Below the pieces are notes generated by a model that made no database searches, was not told where the DNA came from, and was given only the letters and a program-made list of their open reading frames with translations. Made by a program: the position numbers and the translations under genes. 45,916 nt of DNA from a virus: IMG/VR virus record IMGVR_UViG_3300048834_001291, positions 1 to 45,916 of that record; one strand, given 5' to 3'. Below, piece after piece: positions 1 through 45,916 of the stretch. Each line of letters opens with the position of its first letter. The stretch's first letter is position 1.

Positions 1-1125
1 ATGCAGATCGCGTTCAAACCAGCCCGCAAGCGGCCCTGGTACGTGGATTTGCGGGCGGTGGGAGGTGGGCAGCGATTCTTTCTCACCGAAAAAGAGGCGA
101 AGGACGCGGTGAAGGCCGCATCCAAGGACAGGCAGGAGATCGGCCGCGAATGGGCAGATTTGGCGCCCCGCGACCGTTTGAAGGTCGTCCGGATCCTCGA
201 CGAGATGAAAGCAGCGGGCACGACGCTCGAAACCGTCTGGGCTGCCTGGAAGGCCAAGGAGATCGCTGCCCCGCGCACCGGTCCCACGCTCGGGGCTGCC
301 ATCACCCAACTCGTTGCGGCAAAACGCGAAGCCAACCTTCGATCCGCGTACATTGACGGGCTGGAGAACTACCTGGAATCGTTCGCCAAGGGTCGGGAGA
401 AGATCCCGGTCGACGCGATCACCGCTGACGACGTTCTCGACTGGTTCACCGCTCGCGCAGAGAAACCCGCCACGAAGGCCTCGAACATCGGGCGGCTCTC
501 GGCCCTGTTCACCTTCGCGATCCGACGCCGATGGAGGACCGACAATCCGGTGGACGTGGTGGAGCGTCCCCGCCTGGAGGGGCGACCGCCTCAGATCCTC
601 ACAGTCCGTCAGGCCGCGAAGGTCCTGGTGTGGGTGAAGCGGAAACACCCCAAGGGCCTCGCCTGGTTCGCCCTGGCCCTCATGGCGGGAATCCGCCCCG
701 AGGAGTGCGATCGGCTGTCCTGGGATGCCGTGAATCTCAAGGACGGGATCGTCACCATCGACGCGGCGGCCTCGAAGGTGCGCCGGCGCCGGATCGTCCA
801 CCTCCAGCCTGCCGCCGTCGCCTGGCTGAAGCTCGCGAAGGAGCTGAAGGCCGACCTTCCTCTGGCATTCATCACCCGCCGACGTTACCTCCGCGGCCTT
901 CGGGCGAAGCTCGGGTTCGCCTCCTGGCCGCAGGACATCCTCCGCCACACCTGCGCCTCCTACCTCATGGCACAGTGGCAGGACGCCGGCCGCGTGGCGG
1001 CGGAACTAGGCAACTCGGCCGGGGTTCTCCTGCGCCATTATCGAGAGCTGGTGCGTCGAGAGGACGCGGAGCGGTTCTGGAAACTGATGCCTCAGGCTCC
1101 TGATCGACTTTCACACCATGCGTGA
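1..1125 (+). CDS. int: Phage integrase (tyrosine recombinase)
   Basis: This protein should catalyse site-specific insertion and excision of the element. The N-terminal part (to about residue 190) looks like an arm/core-binding domain with a SAM-like helical stretch, and the rest is the catalytic domain. Box I is AGIRPEE (Arg232), a basic SKVRRR stretch gives the likely beta-hairpin Lys259, box II is DILRHTCASY (Arg315, His316) and the nucleophile is most likely Tyr347 in LLRHYREL. The usual His of HxxR is Asp312 and the usual His/Trp of LGH is Asn338; I recall the LGNS...HYREL form from verrucomicrobial integrases. At 374 aa the length is normal. It is the first gene on the plus strand, followed by the restriction-modification pair. 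Upstream sequence is not in the window, so the start is taken as the first ATG. Confidence 0.93.
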   Translation: MQIAFKPARKRPWYVDLRAVGGGQRFFLTEKEAKDAVKAASKDRQEIGREWADLAPRDRLKVVRILDEMKAAGTTLETVWAAWKAKEIAAPRTGPTLGAAITQLVAAKREANLRSAYIDGLENYLESFAKGREKIPVDAITADDVLDWFTARAEKPATKASNIGRLSALFTFAIRRRWRTDNPVDVVERPRLEGRPPQILTVRQAAKVLVWVKRKHPKGLAWFALALMAGIRPEECDRLSWDAVNLKDGIVTIDAAASKVRRRRIVHLQPAAVAWLKLAKELKADLPLAFITRRRYLRGLRAKLGFASWPQDILRHTCASYLMAQWQDAGRVAAELGNSAGVLLRHYRELVRREDAERFWKLMPQAPDRLSHHA

Positions 1126-1155: not shown

Positions 1156-2604
1156 GTGAAGACGAAGATCTTGGGCCAATACTTCACCCCGGATGAGGTG
1201 GCCAGCAGCCTGGTGCGTTGGGTGGTGCAACGCCCAGGGGACAGGCTGCTTGATCCATCGTGCGGTGATGGCCAGTTCCTCAAAGCGCACAGGTTCGCGG
1301 TTGGGGTGGAGATTGATCACGCGCATGCCGTTCGTGCTCGCGAACGCGCGCCAGCGGCACTTGTACACGGGGGAGACTTTTTCATCTGGGCCTCGGCTAC
1401 TGAGGAGCGGTTCGATGCGATCGCTGGCAATCCCCCATTCATCCGGTACCAGCGGTTCTCGGGCGAATCGAGGTCTCGTGCGCTTGCGGCTGCACGAAGC
1501 ATGGGCGCGAACTTCAGCTCCCTTGCGTCCTCATGGGCGCCTTTCGTCATCTCTGCCGCATGCTTGCTGAATCCAGGCGGTCGTATGGCGTTCGTCGTCC
1601 CAGCCGAGATTGGGCATGCGAGGTATGCCCAGGCGCTGCTACCAGCCCTGTGCTCCCACTTCGAACGGGTACAAATCGTGGCTTGCCGAGAGAAACTTTT
1701 TCCATCTCTCGCCGAGGACTGCTGGCTCCTTTTCTGTGCTGGGTTCGGCGGCCGGAGCTCGGGAATCCACCTCAGCAGCACTGAAGTCTTCAAGGAATCC
1801 GCCCGTCCCCCTCGACGGTCACGGTTCGTCTCCCTTGCCGAATGGCAGCGCATCGGTATGCGACTGCGTCCGTTCCTCCTATCCGAGGACGCATTATCCC
1901 TGTACGAGAGATTCCTCCAAGACCCCGGCGTCAGTAGGCTTGGCGCCCTTGCGTCTACCAATATTGGGTACGTGAGCGGGGCTAATTCATTCTTTCACCT
2001 CCGCCCAAGCGACTTGGAGAAGTTCGACATCCCGCGTTCCTTCACGCGGGTCACAATACGCAAATCGGAACAGCTCCCACACGGTCGTGTGGACGAGCGG
2101 GTCGTTCAACAGTGGATCCAAGCGGACGATCAAGTGCTTCTGATGGACCTGAAGTCTGCCAGCGAGCTGCCACAAAGCATTCGTCGGTATCTCGACAGCG
2201 ATGAAGGGCATGAGGCTCGTGCAAGCTACAAGTGCCGGTCGCGCACCCCATGGTACGCAGTGCCAGACGTGAAGACCCCAGATGCCTTCATGAGCGTCAT
2301 GGCAGGAGATCGGCCGATCTTGGTTGAGAACGCTGCGGGTTGCTCGTGTACAAACTCGATCCTTGCCCTCTCGCTGAAGCCCGGCACTCGCTTTTCTGCC
2401 ATCAGCAGCGGTTGGAATTCAGCACTCGCTGAACTGGGTGCGGAGATCGAGGGCCATCCGCTTGGTGGGGGAATGCTGAAACTTGAGCCGCGGGAGGCGG
2501 CGGCGATTCCGATCCCAGGCCCAAGTGTCAGGATTAACCCCGAGGAGGAATCGATTCTAAGGGCGGCAACAAAGCAGGCCCGTGCATGGCGTCACTATGA
2601 CTAA
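1156..2604 (+). CDS. DNA adenine methyltransferase of an R-M pair
   Basis: Class I SAM-dependent N6-adenine methyltransferase of the gamma type, predicted to protect host and phage DNA from the neighbouring endonuclease. Motifs appear in gamma order: GQYFTP (motif X, residues 7-12), DPSCGDGQF (motif I, 33-41) and NPPF (motif IV, 92-95), followed by a GRMAFVVP strand typical of the later core. Residues from about 230 to the end are a long variable part that probably contains the target recognition domain. The start is GTG, 30 bases after the integrase stop. The stop overlaps the ATG of the next gene by 8 bases, so the two are probably translationally coupled. The family resembles stand-alone type II M.PaeR7I-like enzymes. 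The recognition sequence cannot be read from the gene. Confidence 0.87.
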   Translation: MKTKILGQYFTPDEVASSLVRWVVQRPGDRLLDPSCGDGQFLKAHRFAVGVEIDHAHAVRARERAPAALVHGGDFFIWASATEERFDAIAGNPPFIRYQRFSGESRSRALAAARSMGANFSSLASSWAPFVISAACLLNPGGRMAFVVPAEIGHARYAQALLPALCSHFERVQIVACREKLFPSLAEDCWLLFCAGFGGRSSGIHLSSTEVFKESARPPRRSRFVSLAEWQRIGMRLRPFLLSEDALSLYERFLQDPGVSRLGALASTNIGYVSGANSFFHLRPSDLEKFDIPRSFTRVTIRKSEQLPHGRVDERVVQQWIQADDQVLLMDLKSASELPQSIRRYLDSDEGHEARASYKCRSRTPWYAVPDVKTPDAFMSVMAGDRPILVENAAGCSCTNSILALSLKPGTRFSAISSGWNSALAELGAEIEGHPLGGGMLKLEPREAAAIPIPGPSVRINPEEESILRAATKQARAWRHYD

Positions 2605-3451
2605 TTGGGTTCCTGACTTCATCGACCTCCGAAAAGCCCTCACGGAGTTCGTCACTTGTGACCTGACTCAGGGACAGGCTCACATTAAGCCGCTGCATCA
2701 ATACATCGCGCTGCGTTTGGTTATCGAGGGCGGGTTTTTGCCAGAGGAGATCACGCCAAGGCCACCCCTGATCGCAGATAAGAACCAACTTCGTTTCAGC
2801 GAGGCTTCCGGCACACAGAGCGAACAGACGATTCTTGGCGGACTTAAGTCAAAGAACATCGACGTGGTTGTCTGCAAGGATGGAGTCGGGCCTGTCGTGG
2901 CGATCTCGGTCAAGGGCACCAAGGGGGCATTCCGCAATCTCGTTAACCGGATGGAAGAGGCCATTGGTGACTGCACCAACATCCACATCATGTACCCGGG
3001 CCTCGTCTATGGCTTTTTCCAAGTGATCCAGGGCAACCGACCCGGGCATCCCGGTCTGAAGTCCAACGACTTCGCGCTTACCGAGGACGGAGATGTGGTT
3101 GGTTCGATCAAGCGTTACCATGACGTCCTGACAGGACTTTCCGGTCGTCGATTCGTTCGCGACGACTTCACACGATACGAGGCGGTCGGCTTCAGCCTCG
3201 TGGAGGCGCTTGGCGAGGATCAGGGAGCGGTCCTTCCGGGTTTCCCACCAGCGGGAAGTCCACTCCAGCCGCAACAATTTTTCGATACGCTCTTGAACGT
3301 GTACGACCTGCGATTCCCGTACGTCGCAGCAGACATGCGCAAATTGAGGCGGTGCGAATGGTCGCCCGATAGTCCTGCTTTTTCGTCCATCGGCGGAACT
3401 GATGGATGGATGGACGCGTTGGGATACCTTCCACGCATCAGCGGCGACTAA
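2597..3451 (+). CDS. Putative type II restriction endonuclease
   Basis: The best candidate for the nuclease partner of the upstream methyltransferase. From the chosen ATG it is 284 aa; a GTG 15 bases earlier is possible, but the ATG gives a tight 8-base overlap with the methyltransferase stop. A PD-(D/E)XK-like core is visible: Asp89 in KNIDVVV, then about 15 residues later VVAISVKG with Lys106. The acidic residue before the lysine is replaced by Ser104, which occurs in divergent members of the fold. The following amphipathic NLVNRMEEAIGD helix and a hydrophobic strand are also typical. Function is inferred from this core and from being coupled to a methyltransferase; no close family was recognised. 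Confidence 0.65.
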   Translation: MTNWVPDFIDLRKALTEFVTCDLTQGQAHIKPLHQYIALRLVIEGGFLPEEITPRPPLIADKNQLRFSEASGTQSEQTILGGLKSKNIDVVVCKDGVGPVVAISVKGTKGAFRNLVNRMEEAIGDCTNIHIMYPGLVYGFFQVIQGNRPGHPGLKSNDFALTEDGDVVGSIKRYHDVLTGLSGRRFVRDDFTRYEAVGFSLVEALGEDQGAVLPGFPPAGSPLQPQQFFDTLLNVYDLRFPYVAADMRKLRRCEWSPDSPAFSSIGGTDGWMDALGYLPRISGD

Positions 3452-32895: not shown

Positions 32896-33870
32896 TCACT
32901 GTTCCAGTTCGGCCTCCCCGATGAATCCGATGGGCCGATCGGTCCTGCGGGCGCAGGGCTGCGAGTGCTGGCGCTTCGCCTCCCGGACCTTGGCGATCTC
33001 GGAAAGCAGGATCGGCTCTGTGACAGCCCACAGCTCCGGATCCTCCGCGGTGGAACCCGCCATGATGCCATTCACGCAGACATTCAGGATCTCGCCGCCG
33101 GACAGTCCCTTGCTCGCGCCGGCGATGACGGACAGGTCTGCGCGAACACGTTCCCGGTTCGGTAGGTGGAGTTCGAACAGCCGCCGCCGCATGGCCCGGT
33201 TGGGCAGCTTGAACTCGATGTGCCGGGCGATCCGGCGGAGGAGCGCCGGGTCATAGTTCCCGAACAGGTTCGTCGTCATGACCACCACGCCATCGAACCG
33301 ATCGAGGCACTGCATCAGGACGTTCCGATTCTGGTTGATGGACGTCGCGCAGGACTCATTCATGTCCACCCGGCGGGACAGGAGGCTGTCCGCCTCGTCG
33401 AAGAACAGCACCGCGCCGATCTCGGCTGCCCGGGCGAAAGCCGCCGCGATGTGCTTCGCGGTGTCGCCGAGGTACTTCGAGATCACCGCCGCGTAATCGA
33501 CCTGATACAGGGGGCGTCCAAGCCGCAGAGCGATGCCCAGGGCGGCACGGGTCTTCCCCGTCCCCGGGTCGCCGTAGAAGTTCAGAATGCAGCGACCCTG
33601 CATCGGGTGGACCGCGGAAAGGTTCCAGATCCGGTCCAGATCGTCGCGATGCTCGATCGCCCGCAGGCCGGCGAGGATGTCCGCCTTCGCCTCCGGGTGG
33701 AGGACAAGGGCGTCCAGATCATGCCGGGGTTTGGGGATCACCACCACGCCCACCTCCGGCGCCTGCTGCTGCCGGTCCCGACGGCGGGGGTTGCGGTTGT
33801 CGTCGGCCATCCCGGCGTCAGCGGGGACTTCGGCGATGGGTTCACATGGGTTTGCGCTCAGCTCTGGCAT
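32896..33870 (-). CDS. AAA+ ATPase (SpoVK/Cdc48-type)
   Basis: A 324-aa single-domain AAA+ ATPase preceded by a disordered N-terminus (about 1-50). Motifs are complete: Walker A GDPGTGKT (100-107), the pore loop SKYLGDTAKHI (131-141), Walker B AVLFFDEADSLL (153-164), sensor 1 VVMTTNLFGN (196-205) and an arginine pair LLRRIARHIEF (210-220). The aromatic-hydrophobic-glycine pore loop is typical of ATPases that thread or remodel proteins, rather than of DNA helicases. It is in an operon with the DUF6908 gene, and a further operon carries the amidoligase. A start at MPELSAN is used; an in-frame Met 20 codons later is also possible. Confidence 0.82.
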   Translation of the reverse strand: MPELSANPCEPIAEVPADAGMADDNRNPRRRDRQQQAPEVGVVVIPKPRHDLDALVLHPEAKADILAGLRAIEHRDDLDRIWNLSAVHPMQGRCILNFYGDPGTGKTRAALGIALRLGRPLYQVDYAAVISKYLGDTAKHIAAAFARAAEIGAVLFFDEADSLLSRRVDMNESCATSINQNRNVLMQCLDRFDGVVVMTTNLFGNYDPALLRRIARHIEFKLPNRAMRRRLFELHLPNRERVRADLSVIAGASKGLSGGEILNVCVNGIMAGSTAEDPELWAVTEPILLSEIAKVREAKRQHSQPCARRTDRPIGFIGEAELEQ

Positions 33871-33892
33871 AGGTTCAAGGGTTGGATGGGTG

Positions 33893-34090
33893 TTACAGCA
33901 CGGATTCAATTCGCTGCATGAGGTCGGTCAGTTCAGGCCAGCTAACGTGTCGGCAGTCCTCGATATCGGGGTCGTCGCTCACGTCGAGGTAGAACGATCC
34001 GCCGTCGTGCTTGGCGGCGAGTGCGGCGTGCAGATCGCGCAGTAGAGCGAGGGCATCGGTGGGGTTCAGCTTCGGGCGTTCGTTGTTCAT
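33893..34090 (-). CDS. Small early protein, unknown
   Basis: A 65-aa protein of two or three helices (DALALLRDLHAALAAKHDGG) and an acidic beta stretch (YLDVSDDPDIEDC). Its leader (ribosome-binding AAAGGAACG, then ATG) is nearly identical to that of the 47-residue gene at 34730-34873, and both follow a copy of the palindrome. The frame extends upstream through the operator but the shared leader architecture favours MNNERPK as the start. First gene of the AAA+ operon. Confidence 0.6.
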   Translation of the reverse strand: MNNERPKLNPTDALALLRDLHAALAAKHDGGSFYLDVSDDPDIEDCRHVSWPELTDLMQRIESVL

Positions 34091-34172: not shown

Positions 34173-34733
34173 TCACGGTTGCGGAGGGTTGAGGGTCCAA
34201 TCGAACTCCCCCTGCTCGCGGGGTATTAGAGCTTCGAACTCGGCTGCGAAGAACTCGCCCTTCGTCCGTCCTGCCTTGCGGCCCCGTCCGGTATGGCAGT
34301 CGAAGGTGTAGTCGGGCAGTTCGACCCTCTCGGGTGATCGCCGAGCCTCATCGAGGGCCTCGGTCAACCGCTCGGCGTCGAGCATCATGCGGTCATAGAT
34401 GAAGTTCTGGAGGTGATCGGCGTCCCGGGACTTCCGGCTCTGGCAGAGCACAATCACCGCCTTCGAGAGGAAGATGCGGCTGCGGTGCTTCTTCCCTTCG
34501 TCGGTCAGCACCAGCCAGGAATCGTACAGCGCCTTGATCTCCTGCGTGATGATTCCGGCACAGTCCTCGGCCGAGATGGTCAGGAGGCGCTTCCAGGCGT
34601 ACCGCCCGAAGCCGGACTCGAACAGCTCGAGAGCCATGTACCCGGCCAGGGCGGTGTCCGCTCGCCGGATCGCCTTCTGGAGGCAGGAGGCGACCTCCAG
34701 CATCACGTACCCGCGTTTTGTGAACAGCTTCAC
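34173..34733 (-). CDS. RarA/MgsA C-terminal-like protein
   Basis: A 186-aa protein resembling the C-terminal domain of the RarA/MgsA AAA+ recombination proteins, here without an ATPase domain. The recognisable section is VASCLQKAIRRADTALAGYMALELFESGFGRYAWKRLLTISAED (about residues 14-57), which follows the family pattern of LQKAIRRG...A..W..EL..SGYG...WKRL. In RarA this region contacts DNA and forms the tetramer. As a stand-alone phage protein it may adjust replication fork handling. The start is GTG, overlapping the 47-residue gene by four bases (GTGA), so the pair is coupled. Confidence 0.62.
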   Translation of the reverse strand: MKLFTKRGYVMLEVASCLQKAIRRADTALAGYMALELFESGFGRYAWKRLLTISAEDCAGIITQEIKALYDSWLVLTDEGKKHRSRIFLSKAVIVLCQSRKSRDADHLQNFIYDRMMLDAERLTEALDEARRSPERVELPDYTFDCHTGRGRKAGRTKGEFFAAEFEALIPREQGEFDWTLNPPQP

Positions 34734-34873
34734 GCGGCCTCCAGATGAATGACGTTGGCGATCTCCGCCTCGCAGTGGGCACAGATCTTCGCCAGCCCCT
34801 TTGACGGGGCATCCACAACGACGACGAGCGGCGTCCCAAGCCTGTTCTGATAGAGCACTTTGAACCGGTTCAT
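34730..34873 (-). CDS. 47-residue CxxC protein
   Basis: A small gene with no strong ribosome binding site, encoding 47 residues: two beta strands (FKVLYQN, TPLVVVVDAP) followed by a helix carrying CAHC (residues 31-34), so it may bind zinc through a dimer. The fold is similar to small alpha/beta phage proteins of unknown role. It ends in a GTGA overlap with the RarA/MgsA-like gene and is the first gene after the palindrome at 34906. Its leader matches that of the gene at 33893. Confidence 0.55.
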   Translation of the reverse strand: MNRFKVLYQNRLGTPLVVVVDAPSKGLAKICAHCEAEIANVIHLEAA

Positions 34874-34905
34874 GGTTGGCGTTTCTTTCACTTCTTCCAT
34901 CATAC

Positions 34906-34920
34906 TACGCTGACAGCGTA
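34906..34920. promoter_or_regulatory. Operator palindrome of the MgsA-like operon
   Basis: TACGCTG-A-CAGCGTA, identical to the copy at 31265. The identical block is 33 bp (34904-34936 versus 31263-31295) and a second shared motif TTCCGTTTGAA follows 40 bases from the palindrome. TAGTAT directly downstream on the minus strand could serve as -10. It lies between this leftward operon and the rightward winged-helix gene. Confidence 0.62.
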
Positions 34921-35074
34921 TCAGGAACCCGCCAAATGACCGTTTTTCCGTTTGAAGTTGTCCTCATGTGCGTGACACGCCTTGAATTATCAGTACCAAC
35001 AACTTCGCCTTTGGGGCAGATCGCGAGACAACACAGAAAGTGTGTGATACAAGAACAAATGTTTGGTACGTGCG

Positions 35075-35103
35075 TTGACATTGCCACCCAACCATGGGAA
35101 TCT
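35075..35103 (+). promoter_or_regulatory. Promoter of the winged-helix gene
   Basis: TTGACA (35075-35080), a 17-base spacer and GAATCT (35098-35103) form a good sigma70-type promoter. The ATG of the gene starts 8 bases after the -10, so the transcript would be leaderless, as for the XRE gene. Reading-through would include the structured RNA and end at the terminator at 36002. Confidence 0.55.
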
Positions 35104-35110
35104 CGCCCGC

Positions 35111-35527
35111 ATGAAGGCGATCAGCATTCAGGTCACGGGCGAGGACGCTCCCGCCATTCTGTCCGCCCTGCGGGCTAAAGCGGCGGGGTTGGAGCAGGAA
35201 CTTCGTCGGACTGTTACCTTGATTCAGGCGATCGAGTCGCAGGTGGCGGCCTGCGCTGATCCGAACGCCAAGGCGAAGGGGCAGGTGCAGTTGTTGCCTC
35301 TTGGGGACCTTACGGCGGATGCTGCGAAATCGAAGGCCCGGAAGGCTCCTCCGGGAGAGAACCTTCGCGTGATTCAGGACCACATCTCGAAGGTCGGGCC
35401 GGCAACCGTCGCCGAGTTGAATCGAGCCACCGGGATCGGGGTGTCCTCGATCCAAGCCGTCATGAAACGATCTACTTCGAGCTTTCGTCGCGATGAGGCG
35501 ACGGGTCGGTGGTCCCTGGTGCGCTGA
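35111..35527 (+). CDS. Winged helix-turn-helix protein
   Basis: A 138-aa protein. Residues about 10-60 are a helix-rich, coiled-coil-like region (LSALRAKAAGLEQELRRTVTLIQAIES), residues 65-90 a basic linker, and residues about 90-138 a winged helix (VIQDHISKVGPATVAELNRATGIGVSSIQAV ending RRDEATGRWSLVR). The shape suggests a small transcriptional regulator. It is the only plus-strand gene between the integrase/R-M block and position 43929. Its stop is at the start of a candidate structured RNA and inside the short palindrome GCGCTGAGCGC. Confidence 0.72.
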   Translation: MKAISIQVTGEDAPAILSALRAKAAGLEQELRRTVTLIQAIESQVAACADPNAKAKGQVQLLPLGDLTADAAKSKARKAPPGENLRVIQDHISKVGPATVAELNRATGIGVSSIQAVMKRSTSSFRRDEATGRWSLVR

Positions 35528-35550
35528 GCGCGACCGGGCCGCAACAATTC

Positions 35551-35575
35551 GGAGGTAACTACAATGACGAAGTGA
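35551..35575 (+). other. Ribosome binding site with a three-codon open frame
   Basis: GGAGG (35551-35555) followed 8 bases later by ATG ACG AAG TGA (35564-35575). The site is well formed but codes only three residues, just before the first large hairpin. It may be a leader peptide that couples translation to RNA folding, or chance. Confidence 0.3.
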
Positions 35576-36001
35576 GTTAGCGCGAGGCGGCCACGAAAGC
35601 CGACCGCAACCAGCGCTGTGACATAAAAAGCACCGGGCATCTCGATACCCCTGAAAAGGTATGCCCGAGACGCCCGGTAGGCTGATCTCGATATTCCCAG
35701 CGACGGGAACATCGAGGGTGCGCGGGGTGGGCCCCGCACGACGTGCAGTTGTTAGCGTAGGGCCCGGAATCCTCGGCGTCAATTCCACGTCGCAACGAAA
35801 CGAAAGGAATACCTTGAAAAATTCTTTCAAGACGTGCTTTCGGTGCGTCGGACCTATCATTTTCAGGCGATGGATTAACGATCCTCGGACTGGATTGCGT
35901 AGGTGTCCGCCTCACGGATGTCGGGCTTGGCCCATTCATCTTCATGGGCCGTGTGCTCAGCTCTGGTTGAACATCTAGGCCCCATTCCGGTTTTTAACGA
36001 A

Positions 36002-36036
36002 GCCACACTGCGGCATGCCGCAGTGTGGCCCTTTTT
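36002..36036 (+). terminator. Intrinsic terminator
   Basis: A perfect 13-bp stem (GCCACACTGCGGC paired with GCCGCAGTGTGGC, two-base centre) followed by CC and five T residues on the plus strand. This is the clearest terminator in the window and ends the transcript running from the winged-helix gene and the structured region. The stop codon of the converging glycosyltransferase gene touches its last base. Confidence 0.85.
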
Positions 36037-36842
36037 CAGAGCTCCACCTTCTGCCGCCTTTCGACCAGGACCTTCACACGATCCTGCGACTGGTAGGTGT
36101 CGATGAGGATGTGGCCCTTCCACTTCGAGCGGAGGTAACGCTTCTCGGCCTCGATCCGCTCGGGCGAGCGGAACCGGGAGTTTCCGCCCAAGTTCTTGTC
36201 GCGCGCCTGAAGGAAGCAGAACCGCGACTCGTGCCAGATCACGCGGTTGACCATCAGCTCGGTCATGCACGCGTCGATGTCGCACTTGAAGCGGAGCAGT
36301 TCGTCCCAGCGAACATCCTTGCCGACAACCCCGACCACACCCCCGGCCCAGTGGACGACGGAGAACGGATCGTTACGCTGGAGGACGCGCGGGTCCGGCC
36401 GCTGGTTCCAGCCAAAGACCCGGGCCCTGGCACCCTTCGCCGACCAGGCGACATTCTCGACCATCGCCTCGGTCTCCGCCGGCGACAGAGCACGATTCAG
36501 AAGGGAGGCGATCGTTCGGCAGGCGGTGACGTCATCGTCGTACATCACGACCACCTCCTCAGCGAAGCGACGGATGATCCAGTTTCGGACGGCGCTCACC
36601 CCAATCCTGTCGGAGGGGATCGTCACGATTTCCATGCCGTACCCGCACCCCGCGTAGGACTCAGCCTCGTCCTCGGGGACGACGAGCGTTGCGTGCGGCA
36701 CGAGCCGGTTGGTGGTGATCCTGCCGGCTCGGCCCCGGCTCATGATCACATGCCGGATCGACAAGCTGACCAGGTCCTCCGTCAGCTGCGGCGGCGGTTC
36801 CCAATGGGGTTTGGATGGGTTGGTCATCGGCGGATGGGACAT
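36036..36842 (-). CDS. Glycosyltransferase, TET-associated (TAGT)-like
   Basis: A 268-aa GT-A fold transferase. Landmarks are SIRHVIMSRGRAGRITTNRL (residues about 28-47), ATLVVPEDEAESY, the GISAVRNWII-like SAVRNWIIRRF, and VVMYDDDV (about 98-105) in the position of the DXD metal-binding motif. This pattern fits, from memory, the phage family named TET-associated glycosyltransferases, which sugar-modify oxidised bases in phage DNA. No TET/JBP dioxygenase was recognised in this window, so the substrate is open: a modified base from another enzyme, or a protein. It overlaps the ParB-like gene by 182 bases at its start, where the ParB frame looks low-complexity. Confidence 0.58.
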   Translation of the reverse strand: MSHPPMTNPSKPHWEPPPQLTEDLVSLSIRHVIMSRGRAGRITTNRLVPHATLVVPEDEAESYAGCGYGMEIVTIPSDRIGVSAVRNWIIRRFAEEVVVMYDDDVTACRTIASLLNRALSPAETEAMVENVAWSAKGARARVFGWNQRPDPRVLQRNDPFSVVHWAGGVVGVVGKDVRWDELLRFKCDIDACMTELMVNRVIWHESRFCFLQARDKNLGGNSRFRSPERIEAEKRYLRSKWKGHILIDTYQSQDRVKVLVERRQKVEL

Positions 36843-44487: not shown

Positions 44488-44544
44488 GAGTCCTGATTCG
44501 CTTTGACCTGGAGGACGATCTTCGCTCCAAGGTGCGTACGACAA

Positions 44545-45243
44545 ATGTCCGACATGATCACCACGCACAACGCCGCCGAGCTGCTCGGACCGTTCAACGA
44601 GGTGGAGCTGAAGTTCGCGCCGAAGACCCTCTTTGTGGCGGGGGATACCGGGATCCTCGAAACCGGCGCGCGGGTCAGCCTCGTGGGCTCCAGAGCCGCG
44701 AGCCGTGATGGTCTTGCGCGTGCGAAAAAGCTGGCCCGAATGCTCGTCGAGCGCGGAGTGGTCGTTGTCAGCGGGCTGGCCAAGGGGATCGATGCGGCCG
44801 CCCATCTCGGCACGATCGAAGCCGGTGGCAAAACCGTTGCGGTGATCGGGACTCCCCTGAACCAGTGCTATCCGAAGGAGAACGCCGAGCTTCAGGCGCG
44901 AATCATGCGCGAGCACCTTTGCGTGTCGCAGTTCCCGGCCGGGTACCCGGTCCAGCCGAAGAACTTTCCGATTCGCAACCGCACGATGGCGCTGATTTCC
45001 GACGCCACCGTCATCGTTGAGGCCGGCGAGACCAGCGGGTCGCTCTCGCAGGGGTGGGAAGCTCTAAGGCTGGGGCGCCGACTGCTGATCATGAAGTCGC
45101 TCGCAGAGAGCCGCACCCTGAAGTGGCCGACCGAAATGGTCTCGTACGGCGCGGGAATCCTTTCGGATGACAACTTCGACGACTTCATCGATTCGCTGCC
45201 TGTGCGTGATCGCGACCTGAAGCCGTTCGACTTCGCCTTCTAG
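44545..45243 (+). CDS. DprA/Smf-like protein (ShosA-like)
   Basis: A 232-aa Rossmann-like DprA family protein without the extra SAM or winged-helix domains of housekeeping DprA. The core is VSLVGSRAASRDGLARAKKLARMLVERGVVVVSGLAKGIDAAAHLG (with GSR, SGLAKGID and HLG, all DprA landmarks), then AVIGTPL and PKNFPIRNRTMALISD and ETSGSL. It is followed, one base after its stop, by a phosphoribosyltransferase-like gene. This two-gene order is that of ShosA (DprA-like antitoxin) and ShosT (PRTase-like toxin), an antiphage toxin-antitoxin system known from phage satellites. Either of two nearby ATGs can start it. Confidence 0.8.
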   Translation: MSDMITTHNAAELLGPFNEVELKFAPKTLFVAGDTGILETGARVSLVGSRAASRDGLARAKKLARMLVERGVVVVSGLAKGIDAAAHLGTIEAGGKTVAVIGTPLNQCYPKENAELQARIMREHLCVSQFPAGYPVQPKNFPIRNRTMALISDATVIVEAGETSGSLSQGWEALRLGRRLLIMKSLAESRTLKWPTEMVSYGAGILSDDNFDDFIDSLPVRDRDLKPFDFAF

Positions 45244-45244
45244 G

Positions 45245-45916
45245 GTGAAATTCGCCGCGTTTCTGCAATACCGCCCTCGGTACATCGACGAGATGTCGTG
45301 GAAGTCTCAACGCATCCGTGATGCTGTAAAAAACGACGGGTTTATGAAGGTGACCGCTGAGCGGGGAGCGATGACGCGTCGGGCGCTCGAGTTCTTTGCC
45401 GAAGCGATAAAGCACGGAATCGATGGATCCCCGTTCCTCAAGCAGTACCTCGGGCCGGAAGTGCTTCTGGTGCCGATTCCGAGAAGCGCCCCGCTCAAAG
45501 ATCAGATGGCGCTCTGGGTGCCCAGGCGAATCTGCGAGGAGTTCGTGAAGGTTGGGCTCGGAGGTGCCGTTTTGCCCCTCCTGCGTCGCACGGAGGCTGT
45601 CCAGAAGGCGGCATTCGCGCGGCCCGGGGAACGTCCGACGCCAGCAACCCACTCCAGGAGCATCGCGGTTGACCGGGTGCAGGACCTGACGACGCTGCGG
45701 TTCACTCGGATCACCCTCGTTGACGACTTCGTCACGCGGGGGGCCACGTTTCTCGGTATGCAACCGGTTCTCGCGAGGGCCTTCCCCAAGCATCAGATAC
45801 GTTGTTTCGCCCTCGTCAGGACAGAGAGCTTCAAGCCGATCACGGGAATCCTACATCCCGTCGAGGGCACGCTTTCGGTCGACGACTGGGGGAAGCCGTC
45901 CTGCACGGTGCCGTAG
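45245..45916 (+). CDS. Phosphoribosyltransferase-like toxin (ShosT-like)
   Basis: A 223-aa PRTase-fold protein related to ComF. The PRPP-binding loop LVDDFVTRGAT (about residues 157-167) fits VDDv(t/s)TRGaT-type motifs, and an early strand VLLVPIPRS precedes it. Start is GTG, 1 base after the TAG of the DprA-like gene, so the two are cotranslated. By analogy with ShosT it would be toxic when freed from the DprA-like partner, but neither toxicity nor the substrate can be read from sequence. The gene ends at the last base of the window. Confidence 0.78.
   Translation: MKFAAFLQYRPRYIDEMSWKSQRIRDAVKNDGFMKVTAERGAMTRRALEFFAEAIKHGIDGSPFLKQYLGPEVLLVPIPRSAPLKDQMALWVPRRICEEFVKVGLGGAVLPLLRRTEAVQKAAFARPGERPTPATHSRSIAVDRVQDLTTLRFTRITLVDDFVTRGATFLGMQPVLARAFPKHQIRCFALVRTESFKPITGILHPVEGTLSVDDWGKPSCTVP

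Follow-up and report, generated by a model that had tools for sequence, protein, structure and literature searches.

A candidate minus-strand small RNA convergent with a winged-helix gene in a phage that most likely infects Verrucomicrobiota

Introduction

The closest described system to the locus reported here is the OOP RNA of phage lambda, a short RNA that is made from its own promoter, ends at a hairpin terminator and overlaps the end of a regulator gene convergently; RNase III-dependent cleavage of the resulting hybrid has been proposed (PMC5869508). A different layout is found in the large ornate RNAs GOLLD and ROOL, which often lie near tRNA islands; GOLLD members are often longer than 800 nt, and ROOL contains multiple pseudoknots (PMC12286853).

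We analyzed a 509-nt segment (positions 35528-36036) of the virus record IMGVR_UViG_3300048834_001291, a 45.9-kb linear sequence of 66% G+C that was examined over its whole length (45,916 nt; hereafter the window). An earlier, sequence-only reading had described a chain of strong hairpins on the plus strand of this segment and had interpreted them as a large ornate RNA with a loop-to-distal pseudoknot. The hairpins exist, but that reading placed them on the wrong strand and made too much of them. Here, we describe a predicted minus-strand small RNA that would be antisense to the mRNA of a winged-helix protein, and weigh it against other explanations of the same sequence.

Results

The gene content of the window includes a tyrosine integrase, a terminase large subunit and a replication initiation protein. 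Its AAA ATPase has its nearest relatives in Verrucomicrobiota genomes, e.g. Chthoniobacter and Prosthecobacter, so the phage most likely infects a host of this phylum. The ATPase itself (32896-33909, minus strand) is kept across this phage group at ~56-72% identity, and displays a distant match to the anti-phage protein IetA (E = 1e-33; NCBIfam 'IteA'). At 44503-45916 (plus strand), a DprA-like protein matching ShosA (E = 5e-69) precedes a phosphoribosyltransferase-like frame with a match to ShosT (E = 2e-18), and the two are likely a phage-borne ShosTA toxin-antitoxin defence pair. Directly 3' of the integrase, the stretch 1156-3451 (plus strand) contains a type II-like DNA methyltransferase (E = 2e-93) and, adjoining it, a frame that weakly matches a restriction enzyme (E = 0.004). 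The segment studied here borders a plus-strand gene on one side (35111-35527) and, on the other, a TET-associated glycosyltransferase gene on the minus strand (36036-36842).

The description of the segment as a structured region was borne out, with positions 35528-36036 folding beyond chance on the plus strand (z = -4.8) and the nested hairpin at 35632-35678 present as described. A sliding-window scan identified other sites in the window that fold well too, and fold energy alone would therefore not pick out the segment. Comparison of the two strands across positions 35615-35752 revealed a more stable fold on the minus strand (MFE -72.2 kcal/mol, z = -6.8) than on the plus strand (MFE -63.4 kcal/mol, z = -4.0). 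The hairpins are more stable on the minus strand because each stem imperfection (a single one in hairpin 1, another in hairpin 2 and three in hairpin 3) is a G·U pair there and A·C on the plus strand, without exception. The two-sided chance probability that five imperfections share one polarity is ~0.06, so the G·U polarity supports the minus strand and does not prove it.

These strand data bear directly on the proposal of a large ornate plus-strand RNA held by a loop-to-distal pseudoknot. This proposal draws on a plus-strand fold that beats shuffles, on the terminator at its end, and on an 8-nt complementarity that is real: the loop CCTGAAAA (35650-35657) has an exact complement, TTTTCAGG, at 35860-35867. 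The match had been judged unlikely by chance; however, a loop 8-mer with a perfect complement far away turned up in 3% of dinucleotide shuffles (a loop 7-mer in 10%), and the region contains one distant complementary 8-mer pair compared with 2.1 expected from shuffles. Support for the pseudoknot is only marginal and near chance. On the minus strand the '8-base loop' is mostly absorbed, as the helix gains two U·G pairs and a UUCA tetraloop remains. The second suggested loop pairing joins sequences that do exist (GCGAC, 35700-35704; GTCGC, 35789-35793), but it carries no weight, since a given 5-mer occurs at ~1 in 1,000 per position and would thus turn up by chance about once per two 500-nt regions. 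The terminal plus-strand stem with its T-tract was also present, with 14-nt arms and a 12-bp folded stem in place of the 13 bp claimed. An Rfam covariance search of the whole window gave no match, to GOLLD or ROOL or any other family, at the gathering score and nothing at E ≤ 1, and no tRNA was identified in the 45.9 kb by ARAGORN. A structured non-coding RNA is supported by these analyses, but the GOLLD/ROOL-type plus-strand layout is not: the greater stability of the minus strand, the G·U polarity, the lack of an Rfam match or tRNA cluster in the window and the near-chance pseudoknot make it very improbable.

The segment had also been described as holding no credible protein, and our coding analysis agreed. 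A small gene could start with TTG at 35814 and encode 54 aa with several cysteines, and the AAAGGA upstream is a plausible ribosome-binding site at plausible spacing. However, this frame had a codon score of -13 and a third-position GC of 0.53, compared with 0.73-0.86 in the neighbouring genes; it matched no family, and its sole viral match covered 15 residues around RCPPHGC. We consider a small protein gene hardly probable here. A 298-aa minus-strand frame (34964-35860; codon score -45) had no family match and was rejected, on its codon usage, as a shadow of the winged-helix gene described below.

On the minus strand, the hairpins are preceded by a sigma70-like promoter (35782-35754) composed of TTGACG (35782-35777), a 17-nt spacer and TACGCT (35759-35754). 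This promoter-like sequence abuts the hairpins, ending at 35754, immediately upstream of them. It matches 8/12 consensus bases, with a weak -10 hexamer (3/6), and is omitted by a generic stricter promoter scan because of this partial match; the pattern TTGACN-16..18-TANNNT has two matches in the window (both strands, 92 kb), one of which is this promoter. Hairpin 1 (35719-35740) has 8 bp with one U·G pair (-16.6 kcal/mol on the minus strand versus -13.1 on the plus strand), and hairpin 2 (35687-35716) has 12 bp with one G·U pair and the loop GUCGCU (-18.8 versus -14.5 kcal/mol). Hairpin 3 (35623-35678; -30.9 versus -25.2 kcal/mol) is an intrinsic terminator of 13 bp plus an inner 7 bp, followed by GCUUUUUAU (35631-35623), and together with its U-run it forms the most stable terminator-like structure in the window when both strands are scanned. 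With a start predicted at ~35746-35750 and an end at the U-run (35629-35625), the minus-strand transcript would span 35622-35750 and measure ~125 nt. The locus thus has a candidate promoter and an intrinsic terminator of its own, which would give a short RNA as in OOP. We also scanned 89 sequences of related loci (1.1 Mb) jointly for such a promoter and a terminator within about 220 nt. The promoter-structure-terminator arrangement was found at only 3 places, and the small-RNA locus greatly surpassed the other two in stability (-70.7 kcal/mol). We consider it fairly likely that a compact ~125-nt small RNA exists on the minus strand.

The same hairpins might instead be the 3' untranslated region and terminator of a minus-strand operon that contains the glycosyltransferase gene, with a free RNA either absent or a processing product. 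Consistent with this, the glycosyltransferase gene (stop codon at 36036) lacks a T-tracted minus-strand terminator of its own, and hairpin 3 is the first strong terminator downstream of it. However, the promoter-like sequence lies between the gene and the hairpins, ~250 nt beyond the stop codon, termination does not need hairpins 1 and 2, and the element is absent from relatives. Overall, an operon 3' end appears quite unlikely.

The plus-strand gene convergent with the predicted small RNA (35111-35527; codon score +26) encodes a 138-aa protein with an N-terminal helix and a C-terminal winged helix. AlphaFold2 modelled residues 81-138 with a pLDDT of ~84-90 in the order H-H-H-E-E, and the top Foldseek matches were largely winged-helix domains, all with E values of 0.0085 or more. 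No match was found in PHROGs, and Pfam/NCBIfam gave weak sub-threshold matches only. The model points to a likely winged-helix fold, and we claim no specific family. Terminator scans detected no strong plus-strand terminator from the winged-helix stop codon to 36002, where an intrinsic terminator begins (36002-36036; perfect palindrome 36002-36029, then CCTTTTT). Because this is the sole strong plus-strand terminator downstream, the winged-helix mRNA probably has a ~500-nt 3' untranslated region (35528-36001), which would hold the full complement of the small RNA. A separate palindrome, TACGCTGACAGCGTA (34905-34919), closely precedes the minus-strand gene 34730-34903. It contains TACGCT, as does the -10 element of the small RNA, and may serve as an operator.

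The position of the predicted small RNA suggests an OOP-like antisense RNA that opposes the winged-helix mRNA along its long 3' untranslated region. Such an RNA would start from its own sigma70-like promoter (35782-35754), fold into three successive hairpins and stop at the intrinsic terminator (35631-35623). It would be wholly antisense to the predicted ~500-nt 3' untranslated region of the convergent mRNA, which would end at 36002-36036, and would pair with the regulator's mRNA via complementary stem-loops. The duplex would then be cut or destabilised, leading to less regulator, and convergent transcription might add interference. The promoter-like sequence, hairpins, terminator, strand preference, antisense position and accessory insertion come from computation; that the RNA is transcribed, that the 3' untranslated region is long, and that the two RNAs pair with a regulatory effect are inferences. 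The minus-strand fold, the G·U polarity, the placement of the promoter, the strength of the terminator, the rare architecture and the lack of a coding signal all favour this reading. It is weakened by the failure to find homologues, and hence to see either covariation or conservation, by the weak -10 hexamer (3/6), by the end of the small RNA ~96 nt before the regulator's stop codon, and because so tightly folded an RNA might be no more than a terminator region or might work in trans. We therefore favour it tentatively, at somewhat less than an even chance.

Many small RNAs of phages and accessory loci work in trans. The same minus-strand RNA, with the same anatomy, could act in this manner on host or phage mRNAs or by titrating a protein, and its antisense position would then be incidental. 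Besides the general commonness of such RNAs, this explanation gains from an outline of three hairpins and a terminator like that of Burkholderia ncS35 (ncS035, RF02870), the only Rfam match at E ≤ 10 when 1.2 kb was searched (30.4 bits, E = 7e-5). We do not claim membership in this family, as the match falls far below the gathering score of 79 and the resemblance was gone when the whole window was searched at E 1. Our target search also gave no convincing phage target, with 11-nt complementarities at about the chance level (6 in 4 places versus 2.6 expected). An 11-nt match of the RNA 5' end to the winged-helix mRNA (35285-35295) lies partly upstream of the likely start and was not used. Action in trans is, in our view, unlikely; it and the operon 3' end are the chief rivals of the antisense arrangement, which we tentatively prefer.

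The winged-helix gene and the predicted small RNA are situated in an accessory insert of ~1.1 kb (34904-36035; ends approximate) that comprises a divergent control region, the winged-helix gene, the small RNA and the terminator. We compared the syntenic interval from the glycosyltransferase gene to the next conserved gene (34173-34733) across related loci. This interval was 95-166 nt long in L007, L027, L028, L040, L043, L044 and L087 and 472 nt long in L003, without the insert features in each case, while it held a dehydrogenase-like frame in L029, L031, L032, L034 and L036 and other frames in L022 and L024. The small-RNA segment was not present in relatives infecting Verrucomicrobiota. Because the intervals of relatives are short or carry other genes, the simplest explanation for the winged-helix gene, small RNA and plus-strand terminator is that they inserted into a variable interval. 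We identified no target-site duplication at the insert. The interval past the glycosyltransferase gene (34173-36036 in the window; also L003, L022, L024, L029, L031, L032, L034 and L036) is a hotspot for accessory genes, which differ from phage to phage. Successive genes in L022 (4228-4692) and L024 (3466-4881) begin with a repeated in-frame leader, e.g. MNPSEGFGFEGAAGGCSRVGM, which is probably a repeated untranslated start motif ahead of the true ATG.

No homologue was found by blastn or tblastn in phages and plasmids, or by blastn comparison of the insert with all related loci. Winged-helix peptide patterns had no match in viral and genome contigs, and a weak winged-helix match in L009 proved to be a spurious frame. 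The winged-helix protein was not found in 388 Verrucomicrobiota genomes, nor the DNA in 289, in a search that had no positive control. The RNA was sought with a single-sequence covariance model (80 loci and 289 genomes), with stem patterns (viral contigs) and with a pattern of the promoter plus hairpin 1 (384 genomes), and none of these searches revealed a homologue. Since near-identical records may lie outside the collections and the genome searches lacked a positive control, the absence of homologues is weak evidence for rarity.

Discussion

Our analysis indicates that the segment most likely encodes an orphan small RNA whose general kind is already known from phages, plausible but unremarkable, and that large ornate RNAs gain no new class from it. 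Were it transcribed, we would have here a small RNA from a Verrucomicrobiota phage, a subject on which a search of open-access papers gave us no report, and an easy test case for antisense control of a phage regulator. The locus also illustrates that a striking plus-strand fold can mirror a minus-strand RNA, and that G·U polarity together with flanking signals can expose this. A more ambitious interpretation, which we regard as improbable, treats the winged-helix gene together with the convergent small RNA and the flanking terminator as one mobile regulatory cassette, complete in itself, that Verrucomicrobiota phages exchange in the interval beside the glycosyltransferase gene. In this view the small RNA would control either the regulator or some host process by an undescribed route.

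Compared with known RNAs, the predicted small RNA resembles GOLLD and ROOL in that it is phage-encoded, structured and non-coding, but it is ~125 nt long and lies on the strand opposite to the one first proposed, and the window contains neither a covariance-model match nor a tRNA. With Burkholderia ncS35 it has in common an outline of three hairpins and a U-run terminator; the aligned pairs differ in sequence, so that the outline is common and the sequence is not. The likeness to lambda OOP (pO-oop-tO) is one of layout. OOP reaches 52 bases into the coding end of cII, whereas the RNA predicted here would be ~125 nt long, fold into three hairpins and overlap only the putative 3' untranslated region. 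The predicted arrangement at the locus described here is OOP-like in that a short phage RNA would run from a promoter of its own to a hairpin terminator, converge on a regulator gene and, if the winged-helix mRNA extends as proposed, be antisense to that mRNA.
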